64,000 bases of DNA, from positions 62,001 through 126,000 of the forward strand of contig NZ_ATDL01000003.1 in NCBI RefSeq assembly GCF_000416985.1, given 5' to 3'. Source of the DNA: Sphingobacterium paucimobilis HER1398. GTDB lineage: Bacteria; Bacteroidota; Bacteroidia; Sphingobacteriales; Sphingobacteriaceae. The position numbers and the translations under genes were made by a program. Positions 52,247-63,935 of the stretch are shown one piece after another (position 1 is the stretch's first letter; each line of letters opens with the position of its first letter). Under the pieces are notes generated by a model, which saw only the letters and a list, made by a program, of their open reading frames with translations, was not told where the DNA came from and searched no databases.

Positions 52247-53494
52247 CTATATCGACACAACCTCTTCTGCATTTTTCTTACCAACGGTCAGGCCAAACCA
52301 CATAATCACTATATAAGCTAATACACAAGGTAAAAAAGCGATTTCCCAAGAATAGAGATCTCTCAATACGCCCTGGACGTATGTTAAGATCGCTCCTCCT
52401 ACTATTGCCGTAGAAAGCATTCCTGAGGCAGTTCCCGTATGAGCCCCCAATCCTCTAACAGATAGCGAAAAAATTGTAGCAAACATTATTGCATTACATA
52501 ACCCCACAGCTACCATGGCCCATATAGAAAAAACTCCTGTGCTCCAAGTCGACAATAAGACCAAAGATGTAGACAACAACGCCATAATAAAAAGGATCCG
52601 ATGACTCGCAAATCGCTGTAGGAAAAAAGCTCCTAAAAACCGACCGACCAACATCCCTCCCCAATAATACGTCAGGTAAAAATTTGCAGCACTCTCCGAA
52701 ATCTCCAGTCTATCCGCTATATAATTCGTCAGATAAGTCCCTATACTCACTTCAGCACCGACATACATAAACAATGCAATAATTCCGAATCGGAGATTCG
52801 GGAATTTCTTGAGTAGGCCAAGCAAATTAACTTTCTCCTTTTCTTCATCTGCGCTATGCTCCCTTGATTCTACCACTGGCAACTTGATCCAAAAGACCAA
52901 CAGACCAATCAACAGCAGCCCCGTACCGATAAACAAATAAGGCTTAACCAGCGCCTCAGAACCACTGGATTCTGAAATCTTAGCCAGAATGAAGTGCGCA
53001 CCAAAGACAGGAGCCAATGTAGTCCCCATAGATCCTACCCCTTGTATTAAAGTCAATCGAGATGCAGCACTACTTGCTGGCCCCAGTACCGTGATATAAG
53101 GATTCGCAGACACCTGCAATAAGACAATACCGATAGCTACGATAAAAAGAGAAATCAAGAACAAGAAATACTCGTGAAAAATTGAGGCAGGATAAAACAA
53201 GAATGCCCCTACAGCAGCAATAGAGAATCCTGCCACCATCCCATTTTTATAACCGATCCTATCGACCATCCTCCCTGCCGGAATAGAGATCAATCCATAA
53301 GTTAAATAAAAATAGAATTGGACAAGAGAAGATTGAGAATAACTAAGATTAAACCCCTCTTTAAAAAATGGGACCAGCGTATCATTCAATACGGTAATAA
53401 ATCCCAACATAAAATAAAGAATCGCTAGAACGAGCAGAGCGACCTTATAAGAGGTACCAGCATCCTGTCCGTTAGCTTGAACTGATTTTGTCAT
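52247..53494 (-). CDS. FucP/GluP-type sugar MFS transporter
   Basis: A 415-residue inner-membrane symporter with 12 predicted helices. The N-terminal half has LAILYFMLGFITVLNDTLVPFFKEGFNLSYSQSSLVQFYFYLTYG, and VSANPYITVLGPASSAASRLTLIQGVGSMG is the hallmark of the FucP (FHS) family. Members carry fucose, glucose, galactose or mannose-type sugars with protons. It is the last gene of the SusC/SusD operon, 14 bases after the AGE-family epimerase gene, so it most likely brings the locus's monosaccharide product into the cytoplasm. Confidence 0.94.
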   Translation of the reverse strand: MTKSVQANGQDAGTSYKVALLVLAILYFMLGFITVLNDTLVPFFKEGFNLSYSQSSLVQFYFYLTYGLISIPAGRMVDRIGYKNGMVAGFSIAAVGAFLFYPASIFHEYFLFLISLFIVAIGIVLLQVSANPYITVLGPASSAASRLTLIQGVGSMGTTLAPVFGAHFILAKISESSGSEALVKPYLFIGTGLLLIGLLVFWIKLPVVESREHSADEEKEKVNLLGLLKKFPNLRFGIIALFMYVGAEVSIGTYLTNYIADRLEISESAANFYLTYYWGGMLVGRFLGAFFLQRFASHRILFIMALLSTSLVLLSTWSTGVFSIWAMVAVGLCNAIMFATIFSLSVRGLGAHTGTASGMLSTAIVGGAILTYVQGVLRDLYSWEIAFLPCVLAYIVIMWFGLTVGKKNAEEVVSI

Positions 53495-53508: not shown

Positions 53509-54702
53509 TTAATCTTGTTTTTCAAGTAAAGTCTGTTTATTATGAATTTTTTCGGCAAGGCGAGCCAACTGGTACAAAGCCCTTGGGACGTGAAAACAAC
53601 CTTTCCATTTCCCTCCCTTTAAATTTAACAGCACCTCACCCCGTCTGTTTAAATAGCCGTACATTTCTCCGTATTCTTGATCCACAAAGTTCGTCCATAT
53701 ATAATCATGCAGTTTTTCATACCATACCAGACACTCCTCATTACCAGTCAACTGATAACCCTTTAACATAGCAATAGCCGCTTCTAAATGAACCCACCAC
53801 AACTTTTGATCCCATTCTAATTGTTGAACGGGAACTCCCTTTCGATCTAGAAAATAAAATATTCCACCAAATTTCTCATCCCATCCATACTTTATCGTAC
53901 GAAGGCCGATCTGCACACACCGATTGATCAAATCACGATCACCCCATTTTTCAGCAATGTCCATAACAAACCACATCGCCTCCAACCCATGTCCTGGGTT
54001 GACCAACCTTCCTTCAAAAGTATCACTAAGACGGCCTTCCTGATCCACATTTTCTAAAATAATCCCCAAATCTTCCTTATAAAAGACATTCATGACTTCA
54101 TTTACACCAAACCGAAGTGTACTTTCCACCAACTCATCCGGAAGAAGAGACTCTATTTCCAAAACCAAGTTACACAATATCATAGGAAGGGAAAATCCTT
54201 TCAAAGCCCTATGATCACCTATCAACTTGGAATATTTTCCCTTAGGATCCTTTTGACGTTCTAAGATATTATGAAAAGTCTGCAATGCTATATCACGGTA
54301 CACCTCTTCTCCGCTTGCTTTAAATAATTGAGCGTAGCCCATAGTGGCAAAGCAGTCTGAGAAAATACTATGAGGCTGCACAATAGGATTTCCTGCTCTA
54401 TCCAATGCAAAGAACCAATTCCCATCTTTGTCCCTGCCATTCTTCAAAAGAAAATCCGCTCCCTTCTTTGCTACACGCAAATAAGTTTCGTCAGCCTTAT
54501 AGTTGTTGTACAGCATCGCAAAGGTCCATACTTGACGATGCTGCAGCCACATAAACTTATCGGTGTCATAACACCGTCCCTCCCTATCAAGACAAGTATA
54601 AAACCCACCGTACTCCTCATCAATAGAGTGGTTTAACCAAAAAGGGATAACATTATCGCTCAGATAAGCGCTGTACAACTTCGCTCGTTTATCAAAATTC
54701 AT
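53509..54702 (-). CDS. AGE family epimerase/isomerase
   Basis: A 397-residue (alpha/alpha)6-barrel enzyme. Family motifs are KFMWLQHRQVWTFAMLYN, PHSIFSDCFATMGYAQL, LVNPGHGLEAMWFVMD (active-site His), QKLWWVHLEAAIAM (His) and GGKWKGCFHVPRALYQ (His). Family members include N-acylglucosamine 2-epimerase, cellobiose 2-epimerase and mannose isomerase. The sequence looks closest to the renin-binding-protein/ManNAc-2-epimerase type. No signal peptide, so it acts in the cytoplasm on the sugar brought in by the downstream MFS carrier. The substrate is inferred, not shown. Confidence 0.93.
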   Translation of the reverse strand: MNFDKRAKLYSAYLSDNVIPFWLNHSIDEEYGGFYTCLDREGRCYDTDKFMWLQHRQVWTFAMLYNNYKADETYLRVAKKGADFLLKNGRDKDGNWFFALDRAGNPIVQPHSIFSDCFATMGYAQLFKASGEEVYRDIALQTFHNILERQKDPKGKYSKLIGDHRALKGFSLPMILCNLVLEIESLLPDELVESTLRFGVNEVMNVFYKEDLGIILENVDQEGRLSDTFEGRLVNPGHGLEAMWFVMDIAEKWGDRDLINRCVQIGLRTIKYGWDEKFGGIFYFLDRKGVPVQQLEWDQKLWWVHLEAAIAMLKGYQLTGNEECLVWYEKLHDYIWTNFVDQEYGEMYGYLNRRGEVLLNLKGGKWKGCFHVPRALYQLARLAEKIHNKQTLLEKQD

Positions 54703-54723: not shown

Positions 54724-55572
54724 TTATTGATATTTTAACTCCATAATTACGGGTAAATGATCCGAAGCATATGTTTCAGGATAGGTAGCATAAGACTTAA
54801 CAGTAAACATATTTTCTGCAATCCCATTATATAACAGAAAATCAATAGCTGTAGTCGGTTTTGTGGCAGAATGCGTACTTGGACAATTCGTACAAGGTAC
54901 CCTAAAAGCCACCTTGAGTAAATCCCATACCGGGTTAGACTGGTTCATATTGAAATCTCCCCCAAGTACCATCGGATATTTTTGGTAGGATTTAAGTGCT
55001 TTTAAGACCTCTCTCGACTGCAATTCTCGATTAGCATCGGCAAGGTGATCCAAATGAGTTGAAGCAAACACAAAATCATTACCATCTTTCAATTTTACGC
55101 GTATCCATCCCAGCGTTCGCAGTTCCGCATTCGTACCCGGATTCACCGGGAGCGAAATATTGTGAAACTCCTCTATCGGATATTTTGATAAAATAGCCAC
55201 TCCATATTCACCATTTGAACGATTTATAGCTTTAAAAAACTGATAGTGCATACCTGTGAGTTCAGCCAATTTAGCAGCTTGATCCAAATCCTTACCCGAA
55301 CGGTCTGTAAAACGGTCCACTTCCTGCAAAGCAACAAAATCTGGCTTTGCTGTATTGATCACATTAGCAATTGCAGCCATATCGATCACCGTAGCAGGTT
55401 CTGACGGTGGATTACCGATATGAATATTATAAGACATAAATTTCAATACTTTTTCATTAGAGACACTTCCGCCCCCCTCTTCGTTTTTATCCTTACTGCA
55501 CGCCAAAAGCACGATACAAAAAGGAATCAAAAACAAGAACGATACACTTATAGCTTTAATATTTAATTTCAT
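54724..55572 (-). CDS. EEP-family phosphodiesterase lipoprotein in the SusC/SusD locus
   Basis: The 282-residue lipoprotein has the lipobox VLLACSKD (Cys25). The EEP domain follows with LKFMSYNIHIGN, FVALQEVDRFTDRSGKD, VFASTHLDHL, VLGGDFNMNQSNPVW and the final YASDHLPVIMEL. All metal and catalytic residues of the DNase I-like fold are present. In PUL-like loci such proteins remove phosphate or split phosphodiesters from glycans, but a nuclease role is possible. The gene begins three bases after susD stops. Confidence 0.92.
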   Translation of the reverse strand: MKLNIKAISVSFLFLIPFCIVLLACSKDKNEEGGGSVSNEKVLKFMSYNIHIGNPPSEPATVIDMAAIANVINTAKPDFVALQEVDRFTDRSGKDLDQAAKLAELTGMHYQFFKAINRSNGEYGVAILSKYPIEEFHNISLPVNPGTNAELRTLGWIRVKLKDGNDFVFASTHLDHLADANRELQSREVLKALKSYQKYPMVLGGDFNMNQSNPVWDLLKVAFRVPCTNCPSTHSATKPTTAIDFLLYNGIAENMFTVKSYATYPETYASDHLPVIMELKYQ

Positions 55573-55575
55573 AGC

Positions 55576-57348
55576 TTACCAATTTGGGTTTTGTTTTAAA
55601 TTTGGGTTCATTAAATAATCACTTTCCGGAATAGGATATAGATACATGCGATCATGCCATACGCGGGGCACATGATTCATCCATAGTATTTCGCCTTTAT
55701 TTCCCTCCGACAGAATCATAGCATTAGGCTGACCATTGACCGTACCGGCAATATTCATATAGATCACACCACTTTCCGTTTGACTCGGAGTCGCTGTTAC
55801 GAATGCTACATCATTTTTTCCATCTCCATTCAGATCCATGGGGGTATTTAGCGTAGGCACATACATACCATTCCACTCATCTGTAAACAATTCGCCTCTC
55901 TTCCAACGAATGATATCATAAAACCGAAATCCCTCCAAGGCCAGTTCTATCCCTCTCTCTCGACGAACTTCCAAAATCACCGCATCATTTATCCCTGGAA
56001 AATATGCTTCCTTCAAATAAGCATCTACAATAACAGGCTTACTCGTTAAGCCCTGTGTTATCCCCCCTCGTTCCCGCAGCAGTCCAATACTCTTAGCCCA
56101 ATCTGCATCAGACAGATCACCCAACTCCGCTTTTGCCTCTGCAAAATTCAATAGTACCTCCGCATAACGTATCAATGGAATATGGTATGCATTTCTAGCC
56201 CCACCATCTAACGATTCATCCGGCTCGACCCATTTGATAGGTTGGTATCCCGTGTACGTATGAGAAAAACTAGGCGCAGTTAACACCGACTTTCCTCCAT
56301 TGACACGAGCATATCCCTCCGTCCGTATAGTCTGCTGCAAACGGCGGTCCCGATGTTGTGTCTCTTCTTGAAAAGTCTTCGTTCGATAATCTGTGGACGC
56401 CGTAAAGGAACTGCCATCCCTGTTCAGATATGTATGGATAAATTTTCTGGTGAAGCTAAGACGGTCCCCATACGAGGCACTCGTATAATACCAATTCGCA
56501 TCATGATATACGCCTAATTCCGTACTATAAGCAATATTCAATATCGTCTCATTCGTCACCCCTTGCTTCACAAACAAATCTCTATAGCTCGTTTCCTCAC
56601 CACTGTTATGCAATGAATACAGCTTGGAGTCCATCACAGCAGAGGCAGCTCCAGCCGCTTCTCTCAACCATTCATCCGCAGTTGATTGAAGTTTCAACTC
56701 CTCATGGTACTTGCGATAAGTCCCCTCAAATAAGCAGATTCTAGATTTAAGCGCCAAGGCAGCACTCTTGGTGATACGTGTTCGTGTTGGCTCGGATACA
56801 GCGCTGATATGTTGGATTGCAAAATCCAGATCTTTCAAGACGGAGTCCATGACCAATGCGCGCGAATCGCGCCCCCCATACAAGAGTTGATCCGTATTAC
56901 TTAACGTCTTGTTTATCCATGGCACATTTCCAAACCTTTTTACTTTTTCAAAATAAAAAAGAGCACGAAAAAGCCGGGCGATACCATTATAGTTGTTCCG
57001 CACTTCCTCACCAACCCCAGGGGAATTATTATTTTCCAAGAAGTAATTAATATTCCGCAAAGCGGTCCATGTCCATCCTGTACTCTGTCTAGGCCCAAAT
57101 GCTCCCGGGCGAAAGAAATCAGGCACATCTTTACGTGCCACGAAATCGCCCATATTATCTCCCCTCAGAATATCTGTTGCCGTAGGCAAAATGGAGTAAA
57201 AGGAATTAGAATACAACTTAAGGCCAGACTCTGTATTGAATACAGCTTCCTTACTAACCGTGGACTTTGGTTCTTGGTCCAGTTTATTACAGGATGACAT
57301 GCCCCCCAAGACCAATACAGTATATATAAAAAATCGAGTAAATTTCAT
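55576..57348 (-). CDS. RagB/SusD family nutrient uptake lipoprotein
   Basis: A 590-residue surface lipoprotein (lipobox GGMSSC, Cys20) that caps the SusC barrel and captures the ligand. SusD features include helical TPR-like repeats, such as NYFLENNNSPGVGEEVRNNYNGIARLFRALFYFEKVKRFGNVPWI. The C-terminal region reads EVRRERGIELALEGFRFYDIIRWKRGELF and ends YLYPIPESDYLMNPNLKQNPNW. The gene is directly downstream of susC with a three-base gap. The ligand is not predictable. Confidence 0.96.
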   Translation of the reverse strand: MKFTRFFIYTVLVLGGMSSCNKLDQEPKSTVSKEAVFNTESGLKLYSNSFYSILPTATDILRGDNMGDFVARKDVPDFFRPGAFGPRQSTGWTWTALRNINYFLENNNSPGVGEEVRNNYNGIARLFRALFYFEKVKRFGNVPWINKTLSNTDQLLYGGRDSRALVMDSVLKDLDFAIQHISAVSEPTRTRITKSAALALKSRICLFEGTYRKYHEELKLQSTADEWLREAAGAASAVMDSKLYSLHNSGEETSYRDLFVKQGVTNETILNIAYSTELGVYHDANWYYTSASYGDRLSFTRKFIHTYLNRDGSSFTASTDYRTKTFQEETQHRDRRLQQTIRTEGYARVNGGKSVLTAPSFSHTYTGYQPIKWVEPDESLDGGARNAYHIPLIRYAEVLLNFAEAKAELGDLSDADWAKSIGLLRERGGITQGLTSKPVIVDAYLKEAYFPGINDAVILEVRRERGIELALEGFRFYDIIRWKRGELFTDEWNGMYVPTLNTPMDLNGDGKNDVAFVTATPSQTESGVIYMNIAGTVNGQPNAMILSEGNKGEILWMNHVPRVWHDRMYLYPIPESDYLMNPNLKQNPNW

Positions 57349-57351
57349 GTC

Positions 57352-60300
57352 TTAAAAAGTTAAGGTAATACCAAAAGAATAACTCTTAATCATCGGATAG
57401 TTGAAACCATCACCTTGGTTAGAATCCCCTAAAAGCTTATCGGAGTCGCCCGTATTTTCAGGGTCAATATTTCCTTTGGTCACTTTAAACATAGGGGAGT
57501 AAGTAAATAGATTTTCACCCGAAAAATAAACGGCTAGAGATTTGACAGCATATTTATTCAAGAAACCAGTAGGTACGTTATAACCGACCTGCAAATTTTT
57601 CAATCGTGCATATGCAATATTTTGTAGATATCGAGTCTGTGTCTCTCGGAGCGTCCCACCTGCCGTCCAAGCCAAATACCCTGTATATCGAGGAAAATAA
57701 GCATCTGGATTATCTTCGGTCCAAATATTGCCCAGCTGAGAGACCAAAGGGTGCCCATAAGGAGCATTATATTGCCCCCAAAAAGTATTGGCGCCTCTGC
57801 TTGGATACCAGTCCTGCTTACCGACTCCTTGGATAAAAGCCGACATAAAAAAGTTGCTATAATCAAATGCAAGATTTAACCCAAATCGATACCTCGGCAT
57901 GCTATTGCCAATAATAACACGATCCCCGGAGTTGGTAGCCGTATTCTCTCCATTGTTGATCACCCCATCATTATTGATATCCTTAAACTTGATATCTCCG
58001 ACACGCCACACACCGGCAGCAGTAGTGCTAAACAAACTTTGATCAGCAGAAGTTTTTATTTGGTGTTGACTTGTATAAAAACCATCGGTCACATAACCCC
58101 ATATGTCACCCAACCTCTGTCCTTCATAATAGTCATTTAACAATTTGCGTTCGTTATTGAACTTCAAAATCTTAGCTTTATTATCAGAAAGAACCCCCTT
58201 TATACTAAAATTAAATGGCTTATCTGCAATATTGAACTTATCTGAATAAGAGACTGTTGCTTCAAATCCACGCGTCTCTAAATCTGCGTAATTGCCCTTA
58301 GGCGAACTTGCACCAAAAATAGCAGGCAATTCTTTACCGGCAGTAAACATATTGGTTGTTTTACGAACGTAATAATCCGCGTTGACCGTCAGCCTGTTCC
58401 TAAAAAAGCCAAGATCAACACCGTAGTTGGCTGTAGTCGATGTTTCCCACGTCAGACCATCCGGGAGCACAGCCGGTGCGCTTGTACTTGCCTGCTGTCT
58501 ACCTTCGAGAATACGCGTCATCTGCCCCAATGCCAGCTGCTCCTGAAAAATATAAGAAGCTATATTTCCATTTCCCAATGAGCCATAAGAAGCTCTAAAT
58601 TTAATATCAGAAACCTTATCCTTATTCCATGTCCAGAACGGTTCATTTGTAAGACGCCACCCAGCCGAAACCGATGGGAACAAAGCATAGCGCTCATGCT
58701 TAGGAAACTTAGAAGATCCATCATACCGTCCGTTAACTTCAAGCAGATAACGATCATCATACGCATAGTTCAATCGGAAGAAACCGCCCAAGATGTTCCA
58801 TTGCTCATAGCCACCAGTCGTAGCCATAGATTCTCCCAATGCCAGATTAATATCTTCCGCATCCTCATAAATCAACCCATTACGTTCCATACCGATACGC
58901 TTATACGTACTCAGTTCATAATTATAACCTACCAGCGCTTTGAAATAATGCTTGTCAGCAAACATTTTTTCGTAGTCAGCATACAGGTTGCTCGCCATGT
59001 ACTGTGTATTACGTTGTATTTCACGAATATCATTATACTGATTACCCAGATATTCGACACCCCCCTGTACCCTGCTATACGGAACAGGAACCCGTATACG
59101 GTTCTCATTGCTATTTGTATTCTGATACGTAAAATCTCCCTTTACATTAAGCGCATTATCCAAAAACTTAGCATGAAAACCTGAGGTAGTACGCAATACA
59201 TTTCGATCATAGTCCATACCATTCTTGCCATAAACGTAATCTCCAACAGTATATGCTGCCGATTGTGTCAATGTACCATCCGGATTAAACATAGGTACCA
59301 TAGGATGCCCCTCTGCCGCCATATTTCTCCAAATACCGCCACCCTCTCCAATATTCATCGGAATGTGAAACACATTTTTTGCAAAGTCCATATTGTTATA
59401 GACCTGTAGCCAATCGGTCAGTTCAATAGCACCTTTGGCCCGTATATTATACCTCTTAAAATCATCCGAATTATATTTAAACAAACCAGGTTGGTTTAAA
59501 TAATTTGCAGAGAATATATAACTTGTTTTTTTACTCTTCCCCGAAAGGCTCAAGTTTTGATCCAGAGCATGTGTATGCTTCTTATACAGATCATCCATCC
59601 AATTATGACTGTCATAATAGATATACTCGCCCGTATTAGGGTCGACCTCTACACGAGGGAGACTTGGATCCTCACTCCTTCTTTTCAGTTCTTGTAAATA
59701 CTCTTGCGAAAACTTCATCGTCTTATTAACATTCTGCGGATAGCTGGCATAATTGTTCCAACTGCCAAATGCCTCATTAAACATGGAAGCCCATAGGTAT
59801 CCGTCAGAAACAAATTCCGGAATATAGGTCGGATTTTTTATCGCATAGTTTCCTGTATAGTTAATTTGTATCTGATCATTCTTGGGGCTCTTCGTGGTGA
59901 TCAAGACAACACCAAATGCCCCTCTAGCACCATATATCGCCGCAGAAGCAGCGTCCTTGAGGACCGTAATAGACTCAATATCATGTGGATTTATCAGGGC
60001 TGGATTCCCTTCAACACCATCGATCAGGATCAAAGCAGAGCCTCCCTGTCCTATAGAAGTTGTACCACGGATATTAAAACCAGGTGATTGACTGGGTCTG
60101 CCATCCGCAGGCGTTATATTAAGGTTAGCCACAGCGCCTTGCAGACCCTGCGAAATATTAGTAATAGGCCTATTTTTGAAAGTCTCCTCACCGATATGTG
60201 CGACTGCACCCGTTAGGTTACCTTTCTTTTGAGTACCATATCCTACGACCACCACTTCTTCCAGATCCGTACTGCTTTTCGATAAGATCACAGTAACTTG

Positions 60301-60588
60301 AGACAGATCAGTAAAATTAACCTGCTGCCCCATATAACCAACAAGACTCACCGTCAGTACGCCCTCATCGGCAGTCACGGGCAATACAAACAGCCCCTTC
60401 TGTCCGGTCTGCACCTGAGTATCTCCCCCCTGTAGTCGCACTGTCGCACCGATCAAAGGTGACCGATCAGCATCCAGCACTACACCATGTAATTGCTTTT
60501 GCGTCTGCGCAAAAGAAGGGGAGCGCATACCAGCCAAAAACAATAGACTGATAAAAGATATAAATAATAGTTTTAGTTCCTTATTCAT
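57352..60588 (-). CDS. SusC/RagA family TonB-linked outer membrane protein
   Basis: The 1078-residue protein is exported (signal LKLLFISFISLLFLAGMRSPSFAQ). An N-terminal carboxypeptidase-regulatory domain, KQLHGVVLDADRSPLIGATVRL, is followed by LEEVVVVGYGTQKKGNLTGAV, the SusC TonB-box/plug signature. The plug contains GRPSQSPGFNIRGTTSIGQGGSALILIDG and IESITVLKDAASAAIYGARGAFGVVLITTK. A 22-strand barrel follows, ending YPMIKSYSFGITLTF. It imports oligomers across the outer membrane using TonB energy, in complex with the SusD partner. Confidence 0.97.
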   Translation of the reverse strand: MNKELKLLFISFISLLFLAGMRSPSFAQTQKQLHGVVLDADRSPLIGATVRLQGGDTQVQTGQKGLFVLPVTADEGVLTVSLVGYMGQQVNFTDLSQVTVILSKSSTDLEEVVVVGYGTQKKGNLTGAVAHIGEETFKNRPITNISQGLQGAVANLNITPADGRPSQSPGFNIRGTTSIGQGGSALILIDGVEGNPALINPHDIESITVLKDAASAAIYGARGAFGVVLITTKSPKNDQIQINYTGNYAIKNPTYIPEFVSDGYLWASMFNEAFGSWNNYASYPQNVNKTMKFSQEYLQELKRRSEDPSLPRVEVDPNTGEYIYYDSHNWMDDLYKKHTHALDQNLSLSGKSKKTSYIFSANYLNQPGLFKYNSDDFKRYNIRAKGAIELTDWLQVYNNMDFAKNVFHIPMNIGEGGGIWRNMAAEGHPMVPMFNPDGTLTQSAAYTVGDYVYGKNGMDYDRNVLRTTSGFHAKFLDNALNVKGDFTYQNTNSNENRIRVPVPYSRVQGGVEYLGNQYNDIREIQRNTQYMASNLYADYEKMFADKHYFKALVGYNYELSTYKRIGMERNGLIYEDAEDINLALGESMATTGGYEQWNILGGFFRLNYAYDDRYLLEVNGRYDGSSKFPKHERYALFPSVSAGWRLTNEPFWTWNKDKVSDIKFRASYGSLGNGNIASYIFQEQLALGQMTRILEGRQQASTSAPAVLPDGLTWETSTTANYGVDLGFFRNRLTVNADYYVRKTTNMFTAGKELPAIFGASSPKGNYADLETRGFEATVSYSDKFNIADKPFNFSIKGVLSDNKAKILKFNNERKLLNDYYEGQRLGDIWGYVTDGFYTSQHQIKTSADQSLFSTTAAGVWRVGDIKFKDINNDGVINNGENTATNSGDRVIIGNSMPRYRFGLNLAFDYSNFFMSAFIQGVGKQDWYPSRGANTFWGQYNAPYGHPLVSQLGNIWTEDNPDAYFPRYTGYLAWTAGGTLRETQTRYLQNIAYARLKNLQVGYNVPTGFLNKYAVKSLAVYFSGENLFTYSPMFKVTKGNIDPENTGDSDKLLGDSNQGDGFNYPMIKSYSFGITLTF

Positions 60589-60598
60589 GATTTAGGAT

Positions 60599-61801
60599 TT
60601 AAAAGTTAAAATGAACATCATCGATATTAATCCTTGGCCTATTGTTATTGGCAAACGGAAGCGATGTATTCACAATACGGAAGCGAACATTTTCACTAAA
60701 ACCAGCGTTTATCGGAAATTGTACCGTACTCAACACAGTCGACTTGTTATCGATTTCGGTAGTACCCACCAGGGTATAACTCGCCCCACCATCTTTGGAC
60801 ATCTCCAGAGCAAACACCGTCGGATTGACATTACCGGTTTCTGCTGCCGCAGGGTATATGCCGTAAGAAACAGCAATAGTCTTGACGCCTTTCAGGTCAA
60901 AATTCATCGCAATAATTCCATTACGCTTCGAGTTTCCAACGGTCCCCTGCAAACGTATACTCTGTTTGCCATTTTTCGGATCGGCTGTACTTGTAGCCGT
61001 AATTCCCCCATCGACAAGCCAAGATCCAGTTACGAAATTCATAGACTTCGCATCATAATTCGTATTCGAGCCCTGCTCGAAATCCTCTAGAAGTTCTTTC
61101 AGACCGACTTGAATATCCTCAAGATTACGAGGTACCAATACAACATTCTTTCCTTCCAATCTCGCTATACCAACCATAGCCTCCACAAACTCAGGATTGT
61201 CCTCCCCTTCAAAAACAGAGCCTTCCTTAAAGTCGGCCATAATCTCTACGATTTCATCATCGATCAATAATCTGCCTTTCAGTTTACCATCTTCCCCCAA
61301 AGCAATATTAACCTTATCCAGTTTTACCAGAATCGGCCCCCAATACCGCACGTTGGCAAGAAGAGTAGCCATACTGGTAGTTTTAGGACGTAACATATTG
61401 CCCGAACTTTCCACCTGGATTCGTTCACGTTCCAACTGCACAACGACCAACTCCCCCTCTATCTCTTTCAATGTAGCTCCTTCCAAATCCAATATCACCA
61501 CATCCCCCATCAATAGATCTGTATTTGCAAACCCCAACTGAACGACGATTGCAGCCTCTGAAACCAGATCCTGCACAATCAGCAGTGTATTATCGCTATT
61601 TTTTGCTCCTGCATCAGAAGTCACCATGCCACGAATTGCAGTTTTGCCAAACACAAGGCTCTCCTTTTGCTGTACCTTTCTCAGCGCCTGTATACTCGCA
61701 GGCATCGAGTATTCATAATTCGGTATCTTAACATCCTGTCGGCAGCCCTGCAACAGCGACAACAAGAGAGTCAAGAATAAAAGGTTCTTAAACAATTTCA
61801 T
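60599..61801 (-). CDS. DUF5689 domain lipoprotein of the SusC/SusD locus
   Basis: A 400-residue lipoprotein with lipobox LLSLLQGC (Cys20). The DUF5689 region (about 40-230) reads IRGMVTSDAGAKNSDNTLLIVQDLVSEAAIVVQL...GDVVILDLEGATLKEIEGELVV, an OB-like fold. The C-terminal half (about 240-400) is a jelly-roll with LLEDFEQGSNTNYD, GSWLVDGGITA, KQSIRLQGTVGNSKRNGIIAMNF and a final PRINIDDVHFNF, like a carbohydrate-binding module. It likely binds substrate at the surface next to SusC/SusD. It lies 10 bases upstream of susC. DUF5689 proteins often occur beside EEP or phosphatase proteins, as in this locus. Confidence 0.88.
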   Translation of the reverse strand: MKLFKNLLFLTLLLSLLQGCRQDVKIPNYEYSMPASIQALRKVQQKESLVFGKTAIRGMVTSDAGAKNSDNTLLIVQDLVSEAAIVVQLGFANTDLLMGDVVILDLEGATLKEIEGELVVVQLERERIQVESSGNMLRPKTTSMATLLANVRYWGPILVKLDKVNIALGEDGKLKGRLLIDDEIVEIMADFKEGSVFEGEDNPEFVEAMVGIARLEGKNVVLVPRNLEDIQVGLKELLEDFEQGSNTNYDAKSMNFVTGSWLVDGGITATSTADPKNGKQSIRLQGTVGNSKRNGIIAMNFDLKGVKTIAVSYGIYPAAAETGNVNPTVFALEMSKDGGASYTLVGTTEIDNKSTVLSTVQFPINAGFSENVRFRIVNTSLPFANNNRPRINIDDVHFNF

Positions 61802-61808
61802 TTTACAA

Positions 61809-63935
61809 TCAATTTAGTTTTAACATGCTATTTATTAATACATTAAATAATTCCACAAACTCCTTATCCTCTTTAAAGGAAGACGTCATTTCCCAAAAAT
61901 TCTGTTTATTAACCTGTGCAATCAAGGAATTGACGATCCAGCTCTGTGTCCATCCCGTCTGAGTGCCCCAAGGCCCCCACCCAGAATCGGCATTACTTGC
62001 CCAATAATCCCACCGTCCAAAATCAAACGCTCGGAACCAAGCGCCGTCCAGATCAGGATGTGCCTCACTTTTAACCTGACTTCTGACAAAAAAAGCATTG
62101 ATCTTTTGCAGGGCATCGCTATACTGTTGATCTTCTGTAGCCGCATATGCTTCACTTAGGCCAAAGGAGGCGTAGTTTAATGTATACAGCATATCCGTCA
62201 CCGGGTCGCCGTAATCCGATATTAATGGCGCCTCTTTCGACCCATACTCTTCGTTGCTTTTGACCTTATCATATCGCCCCAGCCCTGCTATCCCCAATCG
62301 CTCTTTAATAGCCCCCGAACTATCCAGATCCTGCAGCAGCGTATTCGCAACCAACTTCAACCAATAGCGATGCAACTCGGTATCCTCCACCCGAACCAGC
62401 CATGACAAGGGAAGTAACATGCGCGCATATTCCTGCTGAATACCGTTTGTCCATTTCCATAGTGGAAATGCATTCATCGTAAGCGTTATAGCTTTTATAG
62501 CCCGTTCTTTAAGCGGCTCATAACCTGTCTTATCATAGAGCCATAGATAGTTGGCCCACAACCAGGACTCATAGTGCGGATGTAAATTGACCAGATCTTT
62601 TTCATATAAGCTCTCCCATGTCAATGTCTGTAACTTTGCATCTCTAAACCAAGGACCGCGAAATCCCGACTTTCCAGTAGTACGAAAATTACCCAAAATA
62701 CCTTCAATGATATACGAGTGATAACGGCTGGTGTTCAGGTTGTGGCTGGCTCCAATAGTAGCCAATAAGGCCCTAGCGTTGTCATCTCCATAATAGGCAT
62801 CTGGATCCGTTGTGGCCCAACCTATCAAGCCAAATGAGGTACTTTTGGGATCATCTCTTTCTCCACTCCGAAGATTAGATTTGACATACAGAAACTCCAA
62901 AAGATTCTCAGCTATCACTTTGTAATCTGAATCGTGAGAAAGCAGTGCTCCCGAGCTCAGAGCGAAAGCAGTCTCCGCTTGACAATCCCCTCGAATCCAC
63001 CATCTGATAGGCTGCGATCCGTCAGCCTGTATATAAGAAGCATGTCCTTCCAAAATCCCTAGCGACCCATCCCCTACACGGTGCTGGAGTTCCGTCCTTG
63101 GAAATACCACCCCCTCTCCATTTTTCTTGGTATACTGTTGTAGGTAATCGGCCCAATCGGGATGCACAAGTAGTCCCGACTGCCTATACCATTCCACCCC
63201 TCTTCGTATCGCCTCACTATAATCATCAGCTTTAAGCACTTGACCCTTGGAAAAGCTAGGAGACACATCTGTCGAAGCTTCCAGCACACCAATATCTTCA
63301 ACGCCAACATGTTTCAGAATATATTGCCAAAGTTGATTCAGAACCTGATTAGGACCAAACCGAGAAATCACATAATCACTCAGTGCAGTGCTAGATACCA
63401 GAATCTGTCCTTCTCTATACAGACCAGGATAAGCGATGGTACCATCTAGGCCATACTCTGCAAAATCAAACCCTGCAACCTTCGCGATAGCCATAATCGG
63501 CTTATCATTTTTATATAAGTAGAAATTATGGTCGTTTAACGTGACAATGCTATTAGCAGGAACACCTATATCCTGAGCCTCAAGAAGAACACCTCGTTCC
63601 AACCCTATCTTTTTCACCTCAGGACGGCTCTCTCCCCAATAATAAGGGTATTCTAGATAGACCTTCAAACGTTTGCTCTCTATCACTCGTTTTTGACTCT
63701 CCTTTAATTGACCACTATCGTTTCTCGTGTTAGAAAGGAGCAGCACCCCATCTCCCACACCCGCACGATTTAAAACATCTTCCATATTTGGCCTTAGAAA
63801 AAAAGCCACGTTATTAGCCTTCAGAACTTGCAGAAAACGGTTACCACCTTCCGCCACAACCCAAAGACCACAAAAGGCTGACTTAAAGGACACAAAAAGG
63901 AGGGAAAGCAGCAGCTTATATTTTAAACTTTTCAT
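61809..63935 (-). CDS. Exported six-hairpin (alpha/alpha-barrel) protein, probable novel polysaccharide enzyme
   Basis: The 708-residue protein has a signal peptide (LKYKLLLSLLFVSFKSAFC). Residues 24-215 look like an alpha/beta domain of the class I amidotransferase-like kind (GVLLLSNTRNDSGQLKESQ; VYLEYPYYWGES). Residues 240-700 are helix-hairpin repeats typical of (alpha/alpha)6 glycosidases and lyases: WWIRGDCQAETAFA (312-325), YYGDDNARALLA (381-392), RGPWFRDAKL (426-435), HPHYESWLWANYLW (452-465) and DYWASNADSGWGPWGTQTG near the end. I could not assign it to a glycoside hydrolase or lyase family. As the first gene of the operon, it is probably the locus-specific depolymerising or debranching enzyme. 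A TAAATTTG box lies eight bases upstream of the ATG. Confidence 0.85.
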   Translation of the reverse strand: MKSLKYKLLLSLLFVSFKSAFCGLWVVAEGGNRFLQVLKANNVAFFLRPNMEDVLNRAGVGDGVLLLSNTRNDSGQLKESQKRVIESKRLKVYLEYPYYWGESRPEVKKIGLERGVLLEAQDIGVPANSIVTLNDHNFYLYKNDKPIMAIAKVAGFDFAEYGLDGTIAYPGLYREGQILVSSTALSDYVISRFGPNQVLNQLWQYILKHVGVEDIGVLEASTDVSPSFSKGQVLKADDYSEAIRRGVEWYRQSGLLVHPDWADYLQQYTKKNGEGVVFPRTELQHRVGDGSLGILEGHASYIQADGSQPIRWWIRGDCQAETAFALSSGALLSHDSDYKVIAENLLEFLYVKSNLRSGERDDPKSTSFGLIGWATTDPDAYYGDDNARALLATIGASHNLNTSRYHSYIIEGILGNFRTTGKSGFRGPWFRDAKLQTLTWESLYEKDLVNLHPHYESWLWANYLWLYDKTGYEPLKERAIKAITLTMNAFPLWKWTNGIQQEYARMLLPLSWLVRVEDTELHRYWLKLVANTLLQDLDSSGAIKERLGIAGLGRYDKVKSNEEYGSKEAPLISDYGDPVTDMLYTLNYASFGLSEAYAATEDQQYSDALQKINAFFVRSQVKSEAHPDLDGAWFRAFDFGRWDYWASNADSGWGPWGTQTGWTQSWIVNSLIAQVNKQNFWEMTSSFKEDKEFVELFNVLINSMLKLN

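Follow-up and report, generated by a model that had tools for sequence, protein, structure and literature searches.

A candidate founding member of an uncharacterised glycan-active protein family at the head of a putative SusC/SusD operon in Sphingobacterium paucimobilis

The subject of the present study is a gene near one end of a 64,000-nucleotide stretch of the Sphingobacterium paucimobilis HER1398 genome (NCBI RefSeq assembly GCF_000416985.1, contig NZ_ATDL01000003.1, positions 62,001 to 126,000 of the forward strand), the whole of which is referred to as the window. Its product, hereafter the target, has a predicted fold of a known kind but is placed by neither Pfam nor NCBIfam, and it is a candidate founder of an uncharacterised family of glycan-active proteins. 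We consider it very probable that the target is a glycan-active enzyme because its C-terminal domain is predicted to form a toroid (Z about 26 to carbohydrate enzymes), because SusC and SusD genes each lie near 49 of 96 family members, and because members occur fused to glycoside hydrolases (GH) of families GH20 and GH2. A glycosidase is favoured over a lyase, and the best explanation of the results as a whole, which is offered tentatively, is that the target would be a periplasmic glycan-cleaving enzyme of this uncharacterised family that releases N-acetylmannosamine (ManNAc) or a related N-acylhexosamine.

Architecture, conservation and spread of the target family

The gene and the parts of its product that are discussed below are as follows.

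61809..63935, minus strand: target gene, an open reading frame (ORF) call of 708 codons with its ATG at 63935 and its stop codon ending at 61809
63243..63878, minus strand: N-terminal alpha/beta domain, residues about 20-231, with a class I glutamine-amidotransferase-like fold
61866..63242, minus strand: C-terminal (alpha/alpha)6 toroid, residues about 232-690, the presumed catalytic domain
62772..62786, minus strand: DDNAR motif, residues 384-388, at the start of toroid helix 383-400

An AlphaFold model of the whole protein, built on an alignment of 26 rows, contained two domains (pLDDT 85.8, pTM 0.89), and the N-terminal domain folded alone with AF2 reached a pLDDT of 91.1. An alignment of the N-terminal domain comprised 84 rows, near-copies and short rows having been removed. 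The two-domain architecture that the original prediction had read from the sequence was thus recovered with good confidence, and the C-terminal region, which had been described as six hairpins, was predicted as an (alpha/alpha)6 toroid and matched such folds in structure comparison. Residues 232-678 matched toroids of several activities, with VIA Z scores of 26.6 for the GH76 alpha-mannanase BT2949 (4v1r; over 329 residues, 3.5 A), 26.2 for the heparin unsaturated glucuronyl hydrolase 3wiw, 25.6 for the mannose isomerase 5x32, and 25.0 for the polysaccharide lyase 5no8. Since the scores of GH76, GH88, the N-acyl-D-glucosamine 2-epimerase (AGE) superfamily and the lyase are nearly tied, the comparison with GH and polysaccharide lyase toroids that had been suggested for this protein tells only the superfamily. 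The N-terminal domain model matched 6tvk, 3rht, 6nwz, and 4jqs (VIA Z 12.4-11.4), and its fold neighbours are class I glutamine amidotransferases, ThuA-like 4jqs, 3rht, and the middle domains of GH42-type enzymes and 6tvk. The predicted model has the class I glutamine amidotransferase fold but differs from such domains in being fused to a toroid and in the nucleophilic Cys of the triad: of the alignment columns conserved in 97% of 95 rows, none holds a Cys, and the domain is probably non-catalytic.

Sequence searches agreed with the earlier reading, which could not place the target in a known GH or polysaccharide lyase family. It matched no Pfam family at the cut-off, no NCBIfam model, and no PDB sequence up to E 10, so that a clear match to an established CAZy family was found in neither Pfam nor NCBIfam; PDB searches with the family profile and the N-domain profile returned nothing or chance-level matches only, and a Pfam search of 26 homologues gave stray touches only. 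In the literature, no paper could be tied to the family, which is nameless, so that only neighbour and topic terms were usable, and the term "mannosaminidase" was absent among the matches listed.

A toroid profile made from 96 rows was also compared by hhalign with alignments of GH76, GH88/105, and AGE. The probabilities were 4.2% for GH76, 0.9% for GH88, and 28.7% for AGE, the highest of the three; none was significant, and unrelated controls (SusD, GH172, GH20, and MFS) gave at most 0.2%. Positive controls reached 90.0% for GH76-GH88 and 37.1% for GH76-AGE, and the value of 0.5% for AGE-GH88 indicates that this comparison can miss real kinship. By profile comparison, the target would belong to none of the three families. 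The likeness to GH76 may extend to the Asp-Asp pair with which one inner helix would begin, a pair that is invariant in the target family (D384-D385), but the target is 10% identical to 4v1r, carries no PF03663 match (window protein and 26 members), and adds the amidotransferase-like N-terminal domain. The unsaturated glucuronyl hydrolases of GH88/GH105 (3wiw and 1vd5) share the toroid with Z about 26, but the window protein has no PF07470 match in addition to the low hhalign value. Members of the AGE superfamily (GlcNAc 2-epimerase, cellobiose 2-epimerase, and mannose isomerase) share the toroid with Z about 24-25.6 and gave the best Foldseek rows; the target differs from them in having no PF07221 match (window protein and 26 members), no conserved His, and an apparently secreted form, as judged by eye.

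Conservation was scored on 96 full-length rows of a 101-member cluster, from which one fragment and four proteins longer than 800 amino acids had been left out. The window protein is present twice in these rows (WIN_13 and L107_0), some rows are near-copies, and 95-row counts drop the duplicate. The motifs to which the original prediction had drawn attention were conserved in part. In DDNAR, all 96 rows share D384, D385, N386, and R388, whereas the A is variable (DDNSR in some relatives); E456 of HPHYESW was kept in 94 of 96; and in DYWAS...GWG, W645 was identical throughout, N648, D650, and W653 were kept in 95 of 96 rows, and S647 in 94 of 96. RGPWFRDAKL, in contrast, was conserved near the window only, an RGxRLEE-like stretch standing there in most relatives. 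Also identical in all 96 rows were E296, R315, D317, E545, N561, Y564, and E568. His occupies none of the alignment columns that are conserved in 97% of 95 rows.

Judging from helix order and spacing, the inner helices of the toroid would start at residues 316, 383, 453, 499, 583, and 662. GH76 enzymes carry an Asp-Asp pair at the start of the second inner helix, and D384/D385 would occupy a similar position at the start of the presumed second inner helix of the target. Among the polar and aromatic positions of the C-terminal domain, 42 reached a conservation of 97% or more over 95 rows, and 32 of these fell in outer-to-inner loops or inner-helix starts, a side that makes up 281 of the 459 residues (P 0.025; 290 of 20000 in a window permutation). 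This suggests a modest excess of conserved positions on the presumed active-site side; the loops opposite comprise 14 residues, and the finding of none of the 42 positions there says little. A distant homologue from Mesobacillus foraminis, described below, keeps E296, R315, D317, D384, D385, N386, E545, Y564, R635, N648, D650, and W653 and lacks E321, R388, E456, and N561, a pattern that narrows the candidate catalytic set.

Among 59 relatives, 3 had a match to the target, as did 4 among 395 genomes of the phylum and 20 among 400 of the order, tallies that include the window's own genome and, among the 20, one short broken remnant. A scan of GTDB contigs yielded 307 stretches encoding the family, and the 80 best, from 79 loci, were retained. 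Going by record titles, these loci are mostly from Bacteroidota, the others being three from Phycisphaerae, one from another member of Planctomycetota, one each from Verrucomicrobia, Lentisphaerae, and Latescibacterota, and one from a Bryobacterales metagenome-assembled genome (MAG). In the phylum of a Phycisphaerae genome, 5 of 294 sampled genomes matched, with that genome included and some matches being partial. A genome of the same genus as the window (G678, locus L023) carries a remnant of the target gene with 46% identity over 50 residues and an internal stop; it was left out of the 26-row alignment and of the 26 targets used for AGE proximity below.

Several members are parts of larger proteins. 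The target is fused to GH20 in a Phycisphaerae protein of 1536 amino acids (L076) and to GH2 in another of 1325 amino acids, also from Phycisphaerae (L175), and a Leptobacterium protein of 2564 amino acids (L094:2209-9903) combines a target domain with 14 FG-GAP stretches, Calx-beta domains, and a Por secretion tail. All of these fusions are single unbroken frames in the assemblies; an assembly error is possible but is unlikely to account for all of them. The Leptobacterium protein adjoins a second target, AGE, and a major facilitator superfamily (MFS) protein.

The seven-gene operon and its recurrent partners

The target gene is the first of seven minus-strand genes with intergenic gaps of 3-21 bp, and these gaps suggest that the seven are co-transcribed. 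The six genes that follow it are listed below.

60599..61801, minus strand: DUF5689 protein of 400 amino acids (PF18942, over the cut-off; lipoprotein-like start by eye)
57352..60588, minus strand: SusC/RagA TonB-dependent transporter (TIGR04056, 800.2 bits)
55576..57348, minus strand: SusD-family lipoprotein (PF07980, 149.4 bits; lipoprotein-like start by eye)
54724..55572, minus strand: EEP (endonuclease/exonuclease/phosphatase)-family lipoprotein (PF03372, over the cut-off; start judged by eye)
53509..54702, minus strand: AGE (NF052547, 624.7 bits against a cut-off of 600)
52247..53494, minus strand: MFS sugar transporter of the gluP/NagP type (TIGR01272 gluP, 243.5 bits, over the cut-off)

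With SusC and SusD in the same presumed operon as the target, the locus qualifies as a polysaccharide utilization locus. The reading frame, of 708 amino acids, was confirmed, and its first place in a tight operon had been predicted correctly: a ROK-family gene (L107:2242-3471, plus strand) lies divergently approximately 0.3 kb upstream of the target, just past the window end, and this marks the operon head. In another genome, a member of the same cluster as this ROK gene had NagC as its best model (206.9 bits, far under the cut-off of 650). Upstream of the ROK gene and outside the window, an FAD-dependent oxidoreductase (PF12831; L107:3544-4872, minus strand) was considered as an orthologue of the usual FAD partner of the family and rejected because it belongs to a different cluster.

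An apparent signal peptide lies at the start of the target and a lipobox does not, and the sequence, judged by eye, suggests a periplasmic protein. As the product of the first gene, the target may be the substrate-defining enzyme of the operon, as had been expected, but the operon also encodes EEP and AGE proteins, and AGE is the better clue to the sugar. The window AGE is close to solved AGEs in a PDB sequence search (2gz6, 519.9 bits; 6f04, 517.5 bits), and the MFS transporter scored 166.3 bits against the NagP model, under that model's cut-off of 625. Regarding the EEP lipoprotein, its three PDB matches were 4ruw, an EEP protein without a name (E 2.4e-8), the mannosyl-6-phosphatase 4c1r (E 8.8e-5, over a short stretch), and 3mpr. 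PF03372 and the mannosyl-6-phosphatase match point weakly to a candidate phosphatase or phosphodiesterase on glycan phosphates, which may be a phosphate-removing partner; the alternative of a nuclease was dropped because a glycan phosphatase suits the locus better, although the match to 4c1r is short and the best match is the nameless 4ruw. Neither a neuraminate lyase or sialidase nor a uronate-pathway enzyme was recognised among the seven operon genes in Pfam and NCBIfam.

The surroundings of family members were assessed on 1275 ORFs of at least 90 amino acids in 95 stretches. These comprise 79 named loci, 14 stretches without a name, and a single locus divided into the window end and the stretch upstream of it; from a set of 20 stretches, the five that repeat named loci (L110, L114-L116, and L119) were omitted. 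Within 10 kb of the 96 target rows, we found SusC and SusD beside 49 each, AGE-family proteins beside 30, MFS beside 24, GH172 beside 17, a histidinol-dehydrogenase homologue beside 15, ROK beside 13, EEP beside 11, DUF5689 beside 10, an FAD oxidoreductase beside 9, GH20 beside 8, and MurQ beside 4 (three loci), all of which are lower bounds since many contigs end close by. These neighbours were mapped on a FastTree tree, the branch order of which is approximate. The combination of target, DUF5689, and EEP occupies 10 rows in one supported clade that includes the window's duplicate row, and the histidinol-dehydrogenase type, with 15 rows and 2 changes, is nearly one clade. AGE without those other marks was assigned to 22 rows with 14 changes on the tree, which indicates that AGE neighbours are scattered over it.

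A recurrent locus type, with variations, was observed in L062, L066, L069, L074, L078, L080, L086, L106, L125, and L126, in the order SusC, SusD, GH172, SSF, GATase1, ceramidase-like, target, GH172, and histidinol-dehydrogenase homologue, often with GH43 and SASA. Genes of the MurQ cluster lie near the targets of L049, L092, and L123, some with GH20 or a BadF-family kinase. One of these genes was confirmed as an N-acetylmuramic acid 6-phosphate etherase, and such neighbours hint at the use of muramic acid.

The sugar released and competing explanations

An AGE copy of at least 300 bits was located within 10 kb of 14 of the 26 targets in 22 target genomes, and 12 of the 16 AGE copies over the curated cut-off in these genomes were near a target. 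As a control, none of 34 GH88 genes, taken among the matches listed and in genomes also searched for AGE, had AGE within 10 kb; 18 of the 34 are in genomes with an AGE copy of at least 300 bits by hand count.

A search of PLSDB added two relatives of the target, one from Bacteroides finegoldii and one on the Mesobacillus foraminis plasmid NZ_CP033045.1. The Bacteroides finegoldii locus combines its target relative with AGE, MFS, SusC/SusD, and an alpha-N-acetylglucosaminidase. The homologue from Mesobacillus, a member of Bacillota, is 23% identical over target residues 234-650 (E 3e-21), has no signal peptide by eye, and is surrounded by an ABC sugar importer, a ROK kinase, an FAD oxidoreductase, and Gfo/Idh dehydrogenases. 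Adjoining it is NanE, the N-acetylmannosamine-6-phosphate 2-epimerase (290.9 bits, cut-off 189), and a Bacteroidetes MAG (L071) likewise encodes both NanE and a DUF4855-ROK protein in the vicinity of its target. Although NanE is not related to AGE, each of the two enzymes acts on ManNAc or on its phosphate. The occurrence of both beside the family, while two window-genome queries of the NanA/DapA type found no match at E 0.001 among the 1275 ORFs around targets, is the main ground for ManNAc as the product, a proposal that we infer entirely and hold tentatively. These queries also missed the cluster-16 proteins described next, so that the absence test is weak for distant aldolases.

The Mesobacillus locus shares further genes with Bacteroidota. 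Its FAD enzyme is 51% identical to a Bacteroidota partner (cluster 13). Across its first base, the plasmid also encodes an SDR with 61% identity to cluster 15 and a DHDPS-family protein with 68% identity to cluster 16, both clusters being proteins beside Bacteroidota targets. At 51-68% identity, the SDR, the DHDPS-family protein, and the FAD oxidoreductase (L177 and L186) may form a cross-phylum catabolic module. The assignment of cluster 16 to DHDPS-family aldolases was not confirmed by Pfam or NCBIfam; the label derives from the name that RefSeq gives to the Mesobacillus homologue and from the nanA model, which the copy in the window genome matches weakly (E 7e-4). In the window genome, a 59%-identical homologue of the DHDPS-family protein of this module is encoded on contig 17 (2582-3619), away from the window operon.

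The domains (as predicted models), conserved residues, gene order, and recurrent neighbours were computed, and from them we infer how catalysis may proceed, which residues may take part, which sugar may be released from which linkage, and how the operon products may share the work. A glycan would be captured at the surface by the SusC, SusD, and DUF5689 proteins, with phosphate removal as a possible task of the EEP lipoprotein. The target would then cleave the imported oligosaccharide, yielding ManNAc or a related N-acylhexosamine that the MFS protein would import, and AGE would convert ManNAc to GlcNAc. The active site would lie at the barrel end where the inner helices begin, with E296, R315, D317, D384-D385-N386, E545, Y564, R635, N648, and D650; an acid/base glycosidase mechanism with D384/D385 as the acids appears likeliest, and the amidotransferase-like N-terminal domain would be structural. 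In a stricter form, which we regard as possible but doubtful, the family would consist of dedicated N-acetylmannosaminidases, a new glycoside hydrolase family that frees ManNAc from microbial surface glycans and so supplies AGE in Bacteroidota, or a kinase and NanE in Bacillota, a ManNAc route that bypasses sialic acid.

Several observations weigh against the release of ManNAc. AGE was not nearby in 66 of the 96 rows (some contigs end close by), and GH172 and the histidinol-dehydrogenase homologue stand in place of AGE beside 15 rows; the substrate may differ between clades, or the ManNAc assignment may be wrong. Of 44 genomes where the search detected no target, 18 carried an AGE over the cut-off, versus 14 of 22 with a target, and it is consequently closeness rather than co-occurrence that links the two. 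The Mesobacillus ROK kinase scored under the NanK cut-offs. In addition, the DHDPS-family gene named by RefSeq on the Mesobacillus plasmid, with cluster-16 homologues in 13 Bacteroidota loci, could encode an aldolase, and lyase or other chemistry on the same toroid fold is possible.

Alternatively, the target could be a new-family glycosidase that is active on glycans in general, whether of N-acetylhexosamine or of other kinds, and that does not yield ManNAc as its product, AGE then serving co-released sugars. This is somewhat unlikely but accounts for part of these observations, namely the frequency of AGE in genomes without a target and the variation of partners by clade, which include GH172 with the histidinol-dehydrogenase homologue and often GH43, as well as GH20, MurQ, and GDSL proteins. 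It explains less readily the return of AGE at separate places on the tree, and if ManNAc played no part, the presence of NanE, an unrelated enzyme, next to two distant members would be difficult to account for.

We consider it improbable that the target is a polysaccharide lyase or a uronic-acid-active enzyme on the same toroid. The unsaturated glucuronyl hydrolases and the lyase 5no8 among its fold neighbours, weak touches of the D-glucuronyl C5-epimerase Pfam family in 4 of 26 homologue rows (best E 0.0026), and a GH88 Pfam match below the cut-off in one very divergent homologue (E 4.5e-4) are in its favour, but the profile comparison with GH88 was negative, no operon gene was recognised as a uronate-pathway enzyme, and the neighbours point to N-acetylhexosamines instead.

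It is very improbable that the operon is a sialic-acid (nan) locus with the target in place of a known sialidase step. AGE-type epimerases, MFS proteins, SusC/D, and SASA esterases occur in Bacteroidetes nan operons, and the target operon shares with them an AGE-type epimerase, an MFS protein, and a SusC/SusD-type transporter; the cluster-16 genes with their DHDPS-family homologue would also suit such a locus. However, the target operon carries the target and EEP in place of a neuraminate lyase or sialidase, the NanA/DapA-type queries were unmatched around targets, and the five nanA-model matches of the window genome are on other contigs, all below the nanA cut-off. A ManNAc-to-GlcNAc epimerase step is described for Bacteroidetes nan operons in a passage of PMC3969230. 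On contig 19 of the window genome, a nanA-model match (91631-92491, 120.6 bits) lies approximately 4.5 kb from a second AGE copy (97008-98147, 337.3 bits), both below the cut-off, and this pair is possibly a separate sialic-acid locus. A secreted epimerase or isomerase related to AGE, rather than a cleaving enzyme, is hardly to be expected: AGE-superfamily structures are among the best fold matches and gave the highest hhalign value, but AGE-type enzymes use two catalytic His, for which the target family has no conserved counterpart, homologues are fused to GH20 or GH2, and the operon already encodes a dedicated AGE.

Implications for carbohydrate use by Bacteroidota

A widespread nameless family with invariant acidic residues, a fold common among carbohydrate enzymes, and repeated links to amino sugars is directly eligible as a possible new CAZy family. 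Release of ManNAc by its members, if true, would explain the presence of AGE and NanE beside the target without a recognisable neuraminate lyase, and it would suggest that Bacteroidota feed on ManNAc-containing microbial polysaccharides.

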